A DNA stretch of 64,000 nucleotides, from contig NZ_CP032279.1 in assembly GCF_001696615.3 (NCBI RefSeq), positions 1,116,001 through 1,180,000 on the forward strand, given 5' to 3'. Both the position numbers and the translations under genes were made by a program. The notes under the pieces are model-generated. The model did no database searches. It was not told the DNA's origin and worked only from the letters and a program-made list of their open reading frames with translations. Below are positions 3,369-28,536 of this stretch, in pieces (position 1 is the stretch's first letter; every line of letters starts with the position of its first letter). Origin of the DNA: Acinetobacter sp. WCHAc010034 (GTDB lineage: Bacteria > Pseudomonadota > Gammaproteobacteria > Pseudomonadales > Moraxellaceae).

Positions 3369-5450
3369 TCACTTAATCAGTTCCAGCAGCAGGCGCTGCG
3401 AGTTATGCGGCGCTTCGCCTTCCACAGCCTGCACGCGCACCCATGTGCCATCGCCCTGCAGCAGCCAGGACTGCTGATTGTCCTGCATATAGTTCAGCAG
3501 GCCCTGCTGGTAAATGCGCTTCTTCAGGGCCGGATCTTCAATCGGGAAGCAGGCTTCCACACGGTTGAACAGGTTGCGGTCCATCCAGTCCGCGCTTGAG
3601 CAGTAAATGCGCGCATCGCCGTTGTTGCCGAAGTAATACACACGGGTATGCTCAAGGAAGCGCCCGACAATTGAGCGCACGCGGATATTTTCCGACAGCC
3701 CCGGCAGGCCCGGGCGCAGGCAGCAGATGGAGCGGATGATCAGGTCAATCTGCACACCGGCTTGCGATGCCTCATACAGCTTATTGATCAGCTGCATTTC
3801 GGTCAGCGCATTGACTTTGACAATAATCTGCGCCGGCTTGCCGGCTTTGGCATTGGCAATTTCATCATCAATAAAATTGATCAGTTGCGCATGCAGGGTA
3901 AAAGGCGCATGCAGCAGCTTTTTCAGCTTGGCCATTTTACCCATGCCGGTCAGCTCCTGAAAAATGCGGTGCACATCTTCACACAGCTCTTTGTCGGTGG
4001 TGAGCAGGCCGTAGTCAGTATAAATCCGCGCATTGCCAGCATGATAGTTGCCTGTGCCCAAATGCACGTAGCGCACCAGCTTATTGTTCTCGCGGCGCAC
4101 CACCAGAATCATTTTGGCATGGGTTTTATAGCCGACAATGCCGTAAACCACCACTGCGCCGGCTTCCTGCAGCACATTGGCCACCGCAATATTGGACTCT
4201 TCATCGAAGCGCGCACGCAGCTCAATCACCGCGGTCACTTCCTTGCCGTTGCGGGCCGCTTCGGCCAGCACCTGCACAATTTCAGAATCTGCGCCGCTGC
4301 GGTACAGGGTCTGCTTAATCGCCAGCACCTGCGGGTCGCGCGCCGCTTCGCGCAGCAGGTTGATCACCGGCGCAAAGGATTCATAAGGATGATGCAGCAG
4401 GATGTCCTGCTTCTGCATGGCGCTGAAAATGTTTTCAGATTTTTTCAGTACCTTGGGAATGACCGGCGTATGCGAGTCGTAGCGCAAATGCGGGCGCTTG
4501 AAATTGGACAGCAGGCGCGCCAGATTGACCGGGCCATCGACCTTGTACAGCTGCTCTTCGTCCAGATCGAACTCATCCAGCAGGTAGTCGTAAATATGCT
4601 TCGGGCAGTTGTGCGTCACTTCCAGGCGCACCGCGCGGCCAAAGCGGCGCGAGCTTAATTCGCCTTTCAGCGCCTTGGCCAAGTCTTCAACATCTTCATT
4701 TAAAGCCAAGTCGGCATTGCGCGTCACGCGGAACTGGTAGCAGCCGGTTGCGGTCATGCCCGGGAAAAGGTCAGACACATGCTCATGGATAATCGCGGAC
4801 AGCATCACATGATGCTCTTTGCCGCCGGTCAGCTCATCCGGCAGTCGCACCACGCGCGGCAATGAGCGCGGCGCAGGCACGACCGCCAGGTCAATCTGCC
4901 GGCCAAAGGCGTCCTTGCCCTCCAGCGTCACAATAAAGTTCAGGCTTTTATTGACCAGGCGCGGGAACGGATGCGCGGGGTCCAGGCTGATGGGGGTAAG
5001 AACCGGCGCCACCTGCTCCTGAAAATATTTTTTCACCCATGCCGACTGCGCAGGCGTCAGTTCGCCGCGGCGCAGGAAGCAGATGTCTTCTTCGCGCAGC
5101 TTGTTTAAAATTTCCTGATTAAGGATGCGGTACTGGCGCTCAATGGCGGCATGCGCAGTTTCTGAAATCTGATCCAGCACCTGCTTTGGCGTCAGGCCGT
5201 CCGGGCTGCGGCTTTCATTGCCTAAGTCCAGCTGTTCCATGACGCCCGCCACACGGATTTCAAAGAACTCATCCAGATTGCGTGAGAAAATCAGCAGGAA
5301 GTTCATGCGCTCCAGCAAAGGATGCAGCGGATCGACCGCCTGCTCCAGTACGCGCAGGTGGAAATCTAAAATCGACAGTTCGCGATTGATATAGCGGTCA
5401 TTATAAGTATATTCAGTTTGTGCAGGCGGAGTTTCAGCTGCCGTATTCAT
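3369..5450 (-). CDS. ppk1: Polyphosphate kinase 1
   Basis: A 693-residue enzyme that reversibly makes inorganic polyphosphate from ATP at the inner membrane. It shows the whole PPK1 layout: an N-terminal helical domain beginning [23 protein letters not shown], a head domain, and two phospholipase-D-like C-terminal domains. The strand containing [21 protein letters not shown] holds the conserved histidine that becomes phosphorylated, and [13 protein letters not shown] holds the second conserved histidine. The start is ATG 5450, because AGG (of AGGTTAG) lies about eight bases upstream; a GTG at 5489 would add 13 residues without such a site. It is transcribed alone, downstream of mtgA but separated from it by a terminator. 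Confidence 0.96.
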
Positions 5451-5569: not shown

Positions 5570-6244
5570 TCAGGGAATGCGGCTGTAGCGCATATAGCGC
5601 TGGATCATGCGCTTGCGGTACTGCAGCTTGCGGTCAGCGCGGTGCTCCTGATAATACTTTGGATTAGGCAGAATCGCCGCCAGAAACGCCGCCTGCTCGC
5701 GGCTCAGGCTGCGCGAGCTTTTGCCGAAATAGTGCTGCGTCGCCGCTTCGACGCCGTAAATATTATCGCCGAATTCCACCGAGTTCAAATACACTTCCAG
5801 AATCCGCTCTTTCGACCACATGCGCTCCATCATCCAGGTCGCAACAGCTTCCTGGCCTTTGCGCAGAAATGAGCGCTTATTGTATAAAAACAGGTTCTTG
5901 GCCAGCTGCTGCGAAATCGTGGAGCCGCCCGCCACCACTTTGCCCTGATCTTTATTGCGCTCCAGCGCAAACTGCATGCCTTCCCAGTCAAAGCCATTGT
6001 GCTGCAGGAACTTGCCGTCCTCGGCCGCCACTACGGCATGCTTCATGTAATCGCTGATCTGGCTGTAATCGCGCCATTCATGCTTAATCGGCTCAGACGG
6101 ATCTGACCAGTAGTCCAGGCGCATCATCATGGTGGTATCTACAGGATGAGTGCGCCACCAGGCCAGGCTGGCGAAAATCCACAATTGCACCAAAAGCGCC
6201 AGACTGACCAGAATTAATAAAGTGCGGGCAAGAAAGGCTTTCAT
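5570..6244 (-). CDS. mtgA: Monofunctional biosynthetic peptidoglycan transglycosylase
   Basis: A 224-residue family 51 glycosyltransferase that polymerises lipid II into glycan strands at the outer face of the inner membrane. One N-terminal membrane segment (about residues 7-28, [21 protein letters not shown]) anchors it. The catalytic glutamate lies in [15 protein letters not shown], and the family motif [15 protein letters not shown] and VYLNSVEFG follow. There is no transpeptidase domain, so this is the stand-alone MtgA type and not a class A penicillin-binding protein. Length is usual for the family. It is divergent from the rhomboid gene at 6323. Confidence 0.94.
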
Positions 6245-6322
6245 GTCAGTCGGCTGCTCCGGAAAATCTGTTTTTTCATGTTAAGCTTGTTATTAAACGA
6301 ATAATCACCGCAAAAGAATAGC

Positions 6323-7138
6323 ATGCCAGAACTTTCACCTCCTCAAGTAAACACTAAACTTGAAATTCAGCTGTGGTGGTTCACTGCCCTGCTGATTGCC
6401 GTCAATATCGGGCTGTTTGCGTGGCAAGTCCTGCATGGCATGGACATCAGCAATCCAAGCACTGCCGATGCGATCCGCTGGGGTGCTGATTATGCACCTT
6501 TAAGCTTTTTAGCGGAACCCGTCCGCCTGTTCACCAGCATGTTTTTTCATTTCGGCCTGATCCACCTCATGCTGAATATGTGGGCGCTGTATATTTTCGG
6601 CAGCATTGCCGAACAGATGCTGGGACGCATGTATTTCATCGGCCTGTATTTTCTGGCCGGCATCAGCGGTTCCCTGCTCAGCGGCTATGTGTCGATTCAG
6701 GACACATATGAGCTGCTCCGCACCGGCGAAGCCAGCCGCGAGCTGCTGCCGAGCGTCGGCGCCGGCGCATCGGGCGCAGTGATGGGCCTGGGCGCTGCCC
6801 TTACGGTGCTGTCGCTGCTGCCGGTGCTGCCGCAGCAGCGCTTTCTGCTGGACAAAAAAACTTTGGTCAGCGTGATGGCCATCAACCTGGCGATGGGCTT
6901 TATGATCAGCGGCATCAACAACGCAGCCCATATCGGCGGCATGCTCATGGGGGCTTTTCTGGCTGCCGCCTGGTATTTCGGGCAGAAGATTCAGCGCGCG
7001 CCAATGGTCAACCTGGCCAGCCTGCTGCTGGGCCTGGCCGCCTGCTGGTTCATTTATCAATACTGCCTGTCGCTGGTGGCGCACATTGCCCCGCTTTGGC
7101 AGGAGCTGATTGAATGGATGAACCGCGCTGCCGGATAA
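6323..7138 (+). CDS. Rhomboid-family intramembrane serine protease
   Basis: A 271-residue polytopic inner-membrane protein. Family marks are clear: HLMLNMWALYIFG in the second core helix, GAGASGAVMGLGAAL with the catalytic serine, and NAAHIGGMLMGAFLAA with the catalytic histidine. Rhomboids cleave substrate helices inside the membrane; the substrate here is unknown. A hydrophobic N-terminal segment (WWFTALLIAVNIGLFAW) and a C-terminal segment after the core give about seven helices. It stands alone between mtgA and the ABC permease gene. A second, shorter rhomboid gene lies at 17371. Confidence 0.9.
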   Translation: MPELSPPQVNTKLEIQLWWFTALLIAVNIGLFAWQVLHGMDISNPSTADAIRWGADYAPLSFLAEPVRLFTSMFFHFGLIHLMLNMWALYIFGSIAEQMLGRMYFIGLYFLAGISGSLLSGYVSIQDTYELLRTGEASRELLPSVGAGASGAVMGLGAALTVLSLLPVLPQQRFLLDKKTLVSVMAINLAMGFMISGINNAAHIGGMLMGAFLAAAWYFGQKIQRAPMVNLASLLLGLAACWFIYQYCLSLVAHIAPLWQELIEWMNRAAG

Positions 7139-22249: not shown

Positions 22250-22672
22250 TTAAATTGTGACAATTATATGACAAAGCGCTGTCATATAAAGCAGTTTTTC
22301 ATACTTTATTGCATTTAATTCTTGCCGGCGCGCCCGCGCCATCCTTCAACTTAAATTATAAAAATCAAATATTTGTTTTCAAATATTGCGCACTTAAAAG
22401 GATAAACCTGAAATATTTCAAGGCTTAAATATTTTTGAAATATTTCATGGCGGATTATTACAAAAGATTGCCCGAGCACCATAATGACGCATTAATGCTG
22501 CAGCTTCATTAAGCAGACCGCCGCTTTGGCTGGCTATTCTGCGCAGGGCGCTACGGCTAAATATTCAGCAAAGCTGGTTCAGCGCAGCCCATAACTGGCG
22601 AGTATCCGTAAAAAGCGCCTGAATTCTGTTAATATATCGCCGATTTTATATTCCATCGGATTGGGGTTATTT
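22250..22672. other. Upstream region of metH, AT-rich, with twin palindromes
   Basis: About 420 bases between the divergent phosphate transporter and metH genes. No gene is visible. It contains two identical 12-bp palindromes (listed separately). I looked for a cobalamin riboswitch and saw no convincing B12 box or conserved core. Confidence 0.55.
22409..22447 (+). promoter_or_regulatory. Two identical palindromes, possible MetR-type operator
   Basis: TGAAATATTTCA is present at 22409-22420 and again at 22436-22447, 27 bases apart. Each is a perfect palindrome. MetR, the LysR-type activator of metE and metH, binds TGAA-N5-TTCA in enteric bacteria; here the spacing is TGAA-N4-TTCA, one base shorter. 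The location upstream of metH supports a regulatory role, but the regulator is inferred. Confidence 0.45.
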
Positions 22673-26362
<3,690 letters not shown>

Positions 26363-26375
26363 TTTGTTAATCTTA

Positions 26376-26478
26376 GAATCCCCCTAAATCCCCCTTTTGC
26401 AAAGGGGGACTTTATCATGTGATTAAATGAATTACGTGACAGCTCCTCCCTTTTTTAAAGGGAGGTTGGGAGGGATTA
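26376..26478 (+). repeat. Three-hairpin repeat, copy A (left of DUF2971 gene)
   Basis: A 103-base element starting 13 bases after the metH stop. It holds three hairpins: CCCCCTTT/AAAGGGGG (26390-26397 with 26401-26408), TCATGTGATT/AATTACGTGA (26415-26424 with 26430-26439, two G-T pairs) and CCTCCC/GGGAGG (26445-26450 with 26460-26465). Its two ends are imperfect inverted repeats of each other (AATCCCCC... and ...GGGATT), like a MITE. The first 37 bases are identical to copy B at 27574-27680, which lies in the opposite orientation. Confidence 0.88.
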
Positions 26479-26562
26479 ATATAAGCAAAAATGATTACAA
26501 TTGAATTTCAGAAAAATAACAATATAGACTTATAATTTTAATAAACCCAGAAGAGTTTACAT

Positions 26563-27567
26563 ATGTTTGTATATAAATATCGTGGCGGTGCATTTGAAAG
26601 AGATTTAAAGTCCTTAAAAAATAATGAGTTTTGGGCATCAAATACAAAGCAACTCAACGACCCTTGCGAAGGACTAATAACTAGCAATAGTTATCAACAA
26701 CAAATTAACATTCTCAAGAATGTTTTTTATCAACACAAAAACAATATAGCTTTAATTGAGCAAAGCCTTACAAATATTATAGATATGAAAGATACCAAGC
26801 TTGGTATTTTCTCATTAAGTAAGTGTTATAATGATGAACTTCTTTGGGCACATTATGCTGATAGTCATAAAGGTTTTTGTATAGAATATAATCTGGAAAA
26901 ACTTTTATCAAAGCAGGACCCTAAACATCGCTTTTTCGATATCCAATATTCAAATAAAATTCCTAATTTTGATCTTTCAACTGTTATAAATCAAAATGAT
27001 CCTGATAAATTAATTAAAATAATGCTTGGATTTAAATCTCAACGTTGGAATTACGAAAATGAATTACGGGTCATTACAGAAAATCAGGGCTCAAATATAT
27101 ACGATTTCAGAGCCGTAACAGCTATATATTTTGGATTAAAAGCCCCAAAAGATGATATAGAGCAGATAATGCAGACTTTACAAGGGCGCAACGTAAAATA
27201 TTTTCAAATGAAATTAAAACAGAATTCTTTTGAACTAGAAGCTACACAAATAAAAGATAAATTTCAAACTAATGTAAAATATAAATATTCTATAGCACCT
27301 ATCACTGAATTAGCAGTTGATCCTTCTACTTTAAAACTAGAATATCAAAAGTTCTCACCATATTTGCAAAAACTAGCCGAAATTGTTAGGCGAGAACCAG
27401 ATTGTTACGAGGTTACTTATATAGATCTAAGTCTTTCTAAAAGCACACCAAATAATCCTGTATTTTTTGCACAATATAAAACTCAAGCAGATGATTTTCA
27501 TACTCAGACTATACATTACACCACGAATCAAATTGACACAGAATACGATCAAATTGATGATCTCTAA
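26563..27567 (+). CDS. DUF2971 domain protein, AT-rich cargo gene between inverted repeats
   Basis: A 334-residue cytoplasmic-looking protein. The N-terminus (YKYRGGAFERDLKSLKNNEFWASNTKQLNDPCEG) and LGIFSLSKCYNDELLWAHYADSHKGFCIEYNLEK are the hallmarks of the DUF2971 family. Their biochemical activity is unknown, and members are often seen in variable or defence-linked loci. Base composition differs sharply from the neighbours: 19 of 60 bases are G or C at 26821-26880, against 34 of 60 at 24841-24900 in metH. The stop codon is six bases from repeat copy B, and copy A ends 84 bases before the start. This points to acquisition as a unit. The ribosome-binding site is a weak AAGAG. Confidence 0.85.
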   Translation: MFVYKYRGGAFERDLKSLKNNEFWASNTKQLNDPCEGLITSNSYQQQINILKNVFYQHKNNIALIEQSLTNIIDMKDTKLGIFSLSKCYNDELLWAHYADSHKGFCIEYNLEKLLSKQDPKHRFFDIQYSNKIPNFDLSTVINQNDPDKLIKIMLGFKSQRWNYENELRVITENQGSNIYDFRAVTAIYFGLKAPKDDIEQIMQTLQGRNVKYFQMKLKQNSFELEATQIKDKFQTNVKYKYSIAPITELAVDPSTLKLEYQKFSPYLQKLAEIVRREPDCYEVTYIDLSLSKSTPNNPVFFAQYKTQADDFHTQTIHYTTNQIDTEYDQIDDL

Positions 27568-27573
27568 AATAGC

Positions 27574-27680
27574 TAATCCTCCCCAACCCTCCTTTAAAAA
27601 GGAGGGAGTTCCGCGAATTGAATACCGACATTAAATTCGCGTGAAGTCCCCCTTTGCAAAAGGGGGATTTAGGGGGATTC
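27574..27680 (-). repeat. Three-hairpin repeat, copy B (right of DUF2971 gene, inverted)
   Basis: A 107-base element in inverted orientation to copy A. Read on the minus strand it begins with the same 37 bases as copy A, then a diverged middle hairpin (CGCGAATT 27612-27619 with AATTCGCG 27634-27641) and a third hairpin (CCCTCC with GGAGGG). Its last 12 bases (27669-27680) encode the final three residues and the stop of the DUF559 gene. The stems differ in sequence from copy A but keep pairing. Confidence 0.88.
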
Positions 27681-28040
27681 CAGCCTAAACTCCGCAACAC
27701 AATAAATCTGCTCTACAACAGCATCCGTTTCAGTCAAAATCTGACTATTTGAAAATCTTAGAACCATAAGCCCTAATTCACTCAAAGCCTTATCCCGATT
27801 TTGATCTGCATCTAAACCCTCTTCTGTGTAATGCTGCCCTCCATCACACTCAATTACCAAATTCGCTGCTGGGCAATAAAAATCCACAATAAAATTTAGC
27901 ATCGGCTTCTGCCTATAAAACTGCAGATCTAAAATTTGCTTACGCCTTAATCTCTGCCACAGCAGCTGTTCTGCATCCGTCATACTGCTGCGCAAATCAC
28001 GAGACGGCTGCTTTAAGTTTTTATTATAGGGTTTCATCAT
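27669..28040 (-). CDS. DUF559 domain protein, Vsr-like endonuclease fold
   Basis: A 123-residue protein of the DUF559 family, related to very-short-patch-repair and other PD-(D/E)XK nucleases. Visible marks are LRSSMTDAEQLLWQRLRRKQI, FYRQKPMLNFIVDFYCPAANLVIECDGGQHYTEEGLDADQNRDKAL, with the candidate active-site D (VDFYC) and E-x-D-G-x-x-H region, and the late VLRFSNSQILTETDAVVEQI. The role in the cell is unknown; such genes travel widely. The last codons (Glu-Ser-Pro-stop) lie inside repeat copy B, so the original C-terminus may have been replaced. It ends 101 bases past the convergent DUF2971 gene. Confidence 0.85.
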   Translation of the reverse strand: MMKPYNKNLKQPSRDLRSSMTDAEQLLWQRLRRKQILDLQFYRQKPMLNFIVDFYCPAANLVIECDGGQHYTEEGLDADQNRDKALSELGLMVLRFSNSQILTETDAVVEQIYCVAEFRLESP

Positions 28041-28050
28041 TTGATAATTT

Positions 28051-28536
28051 TTAAGCAGTCAATCGGTCTACAAACAGCACCCCATCCAAATGATCAACTT
28101 CATGCTGAATAATACGGGCAGGAAAACCTGAAAATTCCGCCTCAACTTTCTTGCCATTTAGTGTGAAATAACGCACCCGTATGCTTTGCGCACGCTCAAC
28201 TTGCCCGCGCTCATTCGGCACGCTTAAACAGCCCTCTTACCCCAAACACACAGCTTGAGAAAACGCTAAAATTTCGGGATTAACCATCACCACCGCCTCC
28301 ATTTCAGGCGCATCTGGATAACGCAGATTCGGACGCGATGCCACAATAATCACCCGCTTGGAAATATACACTTGCGGTGCGGCGACGCCTACGCCATTAC
28401 GCTCAAGCATGGTGGCATGCATAGCAGAAGACAGCTGCCGCAGCCATTCACTGTTAAATTCCGCGTCTGCGACGGACGCCGCTTTAAGCTTTAAAATCTC
28501 TTCGCCACGCTGCGCTACAGGTAAAATCACGCTCAT
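28051..28536 (-). pseudogene. Peptide deformylase paralogue broken by an in-frame stop
   Basis: One reading frame from ATG 28536 to TAA 28051-28053 encodes a deformylase-like protein of about 160 residues, interrupted by a single TAA at 28237-28239. Before the stop come motif I GVGVAAPQ and strand KRVIIVASRP. Directly after it, in the same frame, come motif II EGCLSVPNERG and motif III QHEVDHLDG with the metal-binding histidines. The stop occupies the position just before EGCLS, where homologues usually have Glu, so one base change (GAA to TAA) explains it. No frameshift is involved. The catalytic Cys and both His lie after the stop, so a truncated product would be inactive. An essential def gene is presumably elsewhere. 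A sequencing error remains possible. Confidence 0.85.

Follow-up and report, generated by a model that had tools for sequence, protein, structure and literature searches.

A hairpin-repeat frame for variable genes beside metH in Acinetobacter, with DUF559 as its likely cognate nuclease

Results

The repeat pair and gene at the 3' end of metH

The window, the whole stretch of 64,000 nucleotides of Acinetobacter sp. WCHAc010034 DNA that was analysed, carries an AT-rich gene between two inverted hairpin elements next to metH. By name, the proteins most similar to those of the window also point to Acinetobacter. The metH gene (22661..26362, + strand; the ORF as listed, with an uncertain start codon and the name given in an earlier note on this DNA) is the fixed left anchor of the arrangement. 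It is followed by R1 (copy A, 26376..26478, 103 bp), a type I hairpin element consisting of an end-1 hairpin (26376-26412), a middle hairpin (approximately 26413-26440) and an inner end-2 hairpin (approximately 26441-26478). The ‘cargo’ is a gene for a 334-aa DUF2971 protein (26563..27567, + strand; PF11185, E 4e-11; PADLOC PDC-S31, E 6e-51), for whose fold the best PDB match had an E value of only 0.11. R2 (copy B, 27574..27680, 107 bp) is a second type I element, inverted relative to R1 and again with three hairpins, the inner end-2 hairpin lying at approximately 27574-27611 and the end-1 hairpin at 27644-27680. Both elements were delimited by sequence, inverted-repeat search and folding. 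Convergent to the cargo gene is a gene for a 123-aa type I DUF559 nuclease (27669..28040, − strand; PF04480, E 5e-35), whose 3' end is overlapped by R2, the last codons and stop codon of DUF559 (27669-27680) forming the end of the repeat. The ORF beyond DUF559 (28237-28536, − strand, running on to approximately 28060) looks cut short, since it encodes 99 aa compared with 159-184 aa for the same cluster, c2, in most other loci; we take it to resemble a peptide deformylase.

The earlier note described two inverted copies with 37 identical end bases around this gene, and perfect 37-nt inverted arms are indeed present at 26376-26412 and 27644-27680. A second inverted pair (26452-26478 and 27574-27600) is 85% identical. 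Because the middle parts of R1 and R2 are unrelated in sequence, the 37 identical bases are not in themselves proof of a recent duplication. Two further particulars of the note also hold: six bases separate the end of the DUF2971 stop codon (27567) from the start of R2 (27574), and the bracketed gene is foreign in composition, with a G+C content of 29.9% against 52.5% for metH and 52.6% for the window. R1 and R2 each fold independently into three hairpins closed by the ends of the element (z of −5.95 and −6.39), so that each, like a MITE, has inverted ends of its own. At up to 3 mismatches the end motif occurs twice in the whole window, against 0.01 occurrences expected. In the WCHAc010034 genome the 22-nt repeat end (up to 2 mismatches) was found at the R1 and R2 sites only, and a looser search added four matches at 78-89% identity, among which two lie side by side. 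A search for a known RNA family gave three matches with E values of 1 or less, none of which reached the gathering score of its family.

The absence of a transposase, also remarked on previously, is correct for the Y1 (HUH) class, which was rejected as the source of the repeats’ enzyme since PF01797 has no match in the WCHAc010034 genome; what the remark overlooks is the nuclease gene that ends inside copy B.

Inverted repeats around a foreign gene have the geometry of a composite element, in which the two repeats and the gene would move jointly as a MITE-bounded transposon, and this is what was originally proposed. There is a precedent in the short inverted-repeat elements around class 1 integrons in Acinetobacter, where the MITE pairs are said, in an excerpt of PMC10969869, to be identical and to mobilise their cargo, whereas here the frame is constant and it is the cargo that varies. 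DUF2971 with both repeats was found at no second site, and a search of 72,556 plasmid records gave a single match, which covered 41 bp of the query. No target duplication is seen in the sequence at the outer ends of R1 and R2, where the note had suggested looking for one. In relatives, R1 and R2 recur with different cargo between them. Mobility of the 1.3-kb unit as a whole was accordingly rejected, and a composite transposon is very improbable. The part of the proposal that survives is that the repeats bracket foreign cargo in an arrangement that is not coincidental. The note would have concluded that two separate insertions had coincided if relatives had each repeat without the gene, or the gene with other flanks; the outcome was a third one, with both repeats around other genes.

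All four of the DUF2971 relatives with at least 66% identity (in G032, G153, G119 and G024) lie directly after metH with type I repeats alongside, and neither repeat type was found in the loci of the relatives with 37-44% identity (8 genomes). In the metH slot, DUF2971 is interrupted in G119 (L111) and gave a fragment-only match in G024 (L054).

The metH slot across the genus

The 3' end of metH is present in 166 of 175 Acinetobacter genomes. The region 3' of metH was taken from 80 genomes, together with the window, and the 76 loci of at least 3 kb were counted. The recurrent frame is metH, R1, cargo, R2 and DUF559, often with a third repeat. A repeat motif lies within 250 bp of metH in 35 of the 76 loci, DUF559 is found in 37, and 30 have both; in nine metH loci repeats occur without a DUF559 gene inside 5.5 kb, and in three others DUF559 occurs without a repeat motif. 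The end motif (up to 1 mismatch) is present in 112 of the 175 genomes, and a reversed control pattern had no match among the rows listed for the genus. Genome-wide, 40 of 263 copies of the end motif lie within 3.5 kb after metH, against 0.26 expected (76 genomes with a usable metH locus).

The cargo stop codon runs into R2 in many loci, and the DUF559 stop codon lies at one fixed offset inside the R2 motif in 20 of the 37 metH loci with DUF559. A second count placed the DUF559 stop inside the end motif in 13/31 type I and 11/29 type II loci; given these three fractions, a stop that always lies inside the repeat was rejected as a general rule. A RelA/SpoT-family gene follows metH with repeats in L095 and without detected repeats in L104, L112, L113 and L121. 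R1 was not detected in L156.

Frame and cargo are separable, and the switch from one cargo to another falls at the edges of the repeats. When loci that differ in cargo are compared, identity is 92% over the last 40 bp of R1 and 56% over the 40 bp that follow; at the other end it is 80% over the first 40 bp of R2 and 52% over the 40 bp preceding it (from 26 R1 ends and 21 R2 ends located in 29 labelled loci). Five close pairs were compared: in three of them (L136/L156, L129/L144 and L114/L122) identity resumes within 5 bp of the left end of R2, in L101/L111 it stops within 2 bp of the right end of R1, and L136/L154 has mixed edges. When placed on the metH tree, the cargo labels of 32 loci require 24 changes, compared with 23.7 in shuffles, and are therefore without phylogenetic signal. 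The distances between DUF559 genes track those of metH (Spearman 0.63, with 0/999 permutations as high; 30 loci), whereas sharing the same cargo does not bring two loci closer in metH (0.185 against 0.181; 30 loci). Thus, DUF559 stays while the cargo turns over.

An empty site, the existence of which had been raised in the earlier note, is found in G059 (L141). It has no cargo but retains a single element between metH and DUF559. This element is a hybrid, matching R1 elements on its left and R2 elements on its right, and the two matching parts overlap by 14 bp within the inner hairpin. Such a hybrid would be the expected product of recombination between the inner hairpin cores.

The slot could in theory be a passive one. 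The hairpins would then be two-way terminators at convergent gene ends, the cargo would be swapped by homologous recombination after DNA uptake with the repeats merely supplying homology, and DUF559 would be a bystander. The position of R2 between convergent genes, to both of which it gives stop codons in many loci, is what a terminator would require, and repeats without DUF559 and cargo changes without repeats both occur. The bearing of DUF559 on this possibility is considered below.

A PADLOC scan of 20 chosen cargo proteins gave matches at the cut of E 0.01 for nine, seven of which were strong; 13 had no strong match. The strong matches are DUF2971 (PDC-S31), Hypoth_Ymh (PD-Lambda-3_B), OLD, SIR2 (PDC-S25), RelA/SpoT (PDC-S33), FRG (PDC-S15) and PtuA, the last from a locus (L148) with a DUF559 match in which the repeat was not detected. 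Further cargo comprises a RES-domain protein, a transglycosylase-like protein, LprI, YfbU, an IS transposase and unknowns. Sixteen of the 32 labelled loci carry a family whose one scanned member matches PADLOC strongly, and by these matches several cargo genes resemble phage-defence genes. The G+C content of eleven measured cargo genes is 26-32%, compared with 38-44% in the 3-8 kb after metH. With variable cargo at one site beside metH, the locus has the form of a hotspot.

DUF559 and its hairpins

The predicted structure of DUF559 (mean pLDDT 89) matches 3hrl, an endonuclease-like protein of Neisseria gonorrhoeae (E 4e-7), and 3r3p, the catalytic domain of the homing endonuclease I-Bth0305I (E 7e-3, TM 0.80 of target), and has a weak fold match to Vsr. 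A sequence profile of DUF559 also finds 3r3p (E 3e-4). The model thus predicts an EDxHD/Vsr-type catalytic fold. The E, D, ExD, H and D columns of DUF559 are invariant or nearly so, are present in the protein encoded in the window, and presumably correspond to the EDxHD active site.

A DUF559 protein of Caulobacter, VsrA, is needed for a DNA-damage response in a methylase mutant and has been proposed to act in mismatch repair, according to the part of PMC12907096 drawn on here; the phenotype fits nuclease activity in cells. With the weak fold match to Vsr, this proposal lends some colour to DUF559 being a Vsr-like mismatch-repair nuclease near which hairpins gather, either because both are dispensable or because DUF559 cuts promote nearby repeat insertion. 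The distribution of the hairpins bears on this.

There are two types of DUF559 in Acinetobacter, type I with AATCCCCCTAAATCCCCC-type repeats and type II with CCTCTCCCTAACCCTCTCC-type repeats. With limits of 500 bp in distance and 4 mismatches, type I repeats accompany 27 of 31 type I DUF559 loci and type II repeats accompany 28 of 29 type II loci, and no locus of either type has repeats of the other. Each type of DUF559 is therefore paired with its own type of repeat. A degenerate type I DUF559 fragment (L325) has type II repeats nearby. Repeat copy number across the genome was rejected as proof of own-type pairing, being non-specific and clade-confounded (AUC for DUF559 type of 0.75 and 0.76 for own-type repeats and 0.67 and 0.72 for the other type).

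DUF559 is also linked to hairpins well beyond the genus. At 60 Pseudomonadota DUF559 loci, the density of pyrimidine-arm hairpins over 300 bp is 3.2 per kb on one side of the gene and 4.0 per kb on the other, against 0.08 at 4-8 kb, and only one purine-arm control hairpin lies within 300 bp. Fifty-six of these loci have a hairpin within 300 bp on at least one side and 29 on both, and among 548 other ORFs in the same stretches 48 (approximately 9%) have one on at least one side and two on both. In a named sample of 74 DUF559 loci from several phyla, the corresponding numbers are 68 and 53, with 14 (approximately 9%) and one for 164 other ORFs. Among loci that by title are not from Pseudomonadota, 17 of 18 have a hairpin on one side or the other; purine-arm hairpins, too, are more frequent near the gene in these loci, with 18 inside 300 bp. 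Across 398 genomes, one hairpin-tail pattern, the only one tested, is present in 64 of 108 genomes with DUF559 and hence absent from 44, compared with 28 of 290 without; of 40 genomes with ten or more copies of the pattern, seven have no DUF559 match at the cut used.

These results weigh against both of the readings set out above. If hairpins simply gathered at a dispensable Vsr-like gene, neither the own-type pairing nor the behaviour of other ORFs of similar size (100-233 aa), which are flanked on both sides in just 1/191 and 1/77 cases in the two samples, would be expected, and this reading is improbable. A passive frame of terminators leaves unexplained both the type-specific pairing and the occurrence of DUF559 between hairpins in several phyla; it seems unlikely, though less so than the Vsr-like reading.

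A filled and an empty site can be compared in G116 and G167, where a repeat-DUF559-repeat block of approximately 577 bp in the former is replaced by 13 bp in the latter. One flank is 95.4% identical over 2.1 kb and the right flank 90.4% over 83 bp only. The junction is not base-perfect and no target duplication is seen there. By this sequence comparison, repeat-DUF559-repeat appears as a discrete block.

Other arrangements were also seen. In L320 (G076, approximately 5885-6892) there are three tandem DUF559 frames with the same C-terminus and with the type I repeat motif among them. A type II DUF559 gene, flanked left and right by type II repeat motifs, is also present in the WCHAc010034 genome itself (L327, C13:2900000-2912000). 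The type II DUF559 genes of L326-L334 have one right-hand neighbour in common, and most of them also one on the left; the genes between DUF559 and the shared right-hand gene vary, and this arrangement is perhaps a second slot. In L319 (G010, approximately 3980-5111) two inverted type II motifs surround two ORFs in a 9-kb stretch that contains no DUF559 gene.

Discussion

The explanation favoured here is that R1 and R2 frame a slot at the 3' end of metH whose gene content differs between related species, and that the likely cognate enzyme of the hairpin-repeat family is the DUF559 nuclease at the edge of the slot. We would put the probability of this at about 0.6. By analogy with the REP/RAYT systems, DUF559 is likely to serve the hairpin repeats as a RAYT serves REPs, with another kind of nuclease, and the metH slot is likely to be a place where DUF559 and the repeats help to swap single genes, often phage-defence-like ones. 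DUF559 may nick or cut DNA at or near its own hairpins, in a manner comparable to that of a RAYT at REPs or of a homing nuclease at its target. Repair of the break may then draw on another repeat-bearing copy, such as the DNA of a relative. Each hairpin core is palindromic, so that R1 and R2, despite their opposite orientation, are also homologous in the same direction over their inner cores. Recombination between these cores could delete the cargo, as appears to have happened in the G059 hybrid, or replace it. The cargo is likely to be kept by selection, since several cargo genes resemble phage-defence genes.

A wider proposal is more tentative, and we place it a little short of even odds. 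DUF559 proteins would be the missing mobilising enzymes of pyrimidine-arm hairpin repeats found throughout the bacteria. Together they would form a REP-like system of a second kind, in which a Vsr/homing-nuclease fold stands in place of Y1 and which in Acinetobacter would operate as a cassette exchange that swaps single phage-defence genes beside metH via palindromic cores.

The likeness to REP/REPIN elements and their RAYTs (Y1) lies in a small single-domain nuclease gene, in dispersed hairpin repeats that flank it and in type-specific pairing. As with a RAYT, the enzyme gene is flanked by its own hairpin family (27/31 and 28/29 loci, with hairpins on both sides in 29/60 and 53/74). The differences are that the nuclease is DUF559, with a predicted Vsr/homing-nuclease fold, in a genome without a Y1 match, and that R1 and R2, as read from both copies, lack a GTAG or CGTC tag at the foot of the hairpin. 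The CGTC REPs are one large class of dispersed hairpins which, in the portion of PMC3733652 relied on here, apparently have no dedicated transposase. The present hairpins differ from them in tag and sequence and are of a different class.

Chromosomal defence hotspots are similar in that one locus carries many alternative defence-like genes. The metH slot differs in holding mostly one or two genes, in having a hairpin frame defined at the level of bases and in its resident DUF559. Yi et al. (Commun Biol, 2025) have reportedly described defence hotspots in Acinetobacter, and may list the metH locus.

Bacterial genomes commonly contain short hairpin repeats, and here another class of them is tied to a common nuclease family of unknown function. 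The pairing of DUF559 with repeats of its own type is open to direct test in vitro. The slot offers a concrete route for the exchange of single defence-like genes without an integrase or transposase, and it also provides a search rule for new defence candidates, namely genes that lie between such repeats and adjoin DUF559.

The EDxHD homing endonucleases, such as I-Bth0305I, share with DUF559 the predicted catalytic fold, and in the phage ‘HEG islands’ nuclease genes likewise stand at the edges of genetic exchange, as described in a section of PMC10448857. In contrast to these, DUF559 is found with no intron or intein, has hairpin repeats at the gene, and adjoins a slot in the chromosome whose cargo is defence-like. 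Close to one end of a 23.6-kb contig classed as viral (L339, viral_contigs) there is a gene for a DUF559 protein that shares 63% identity with that of the window.
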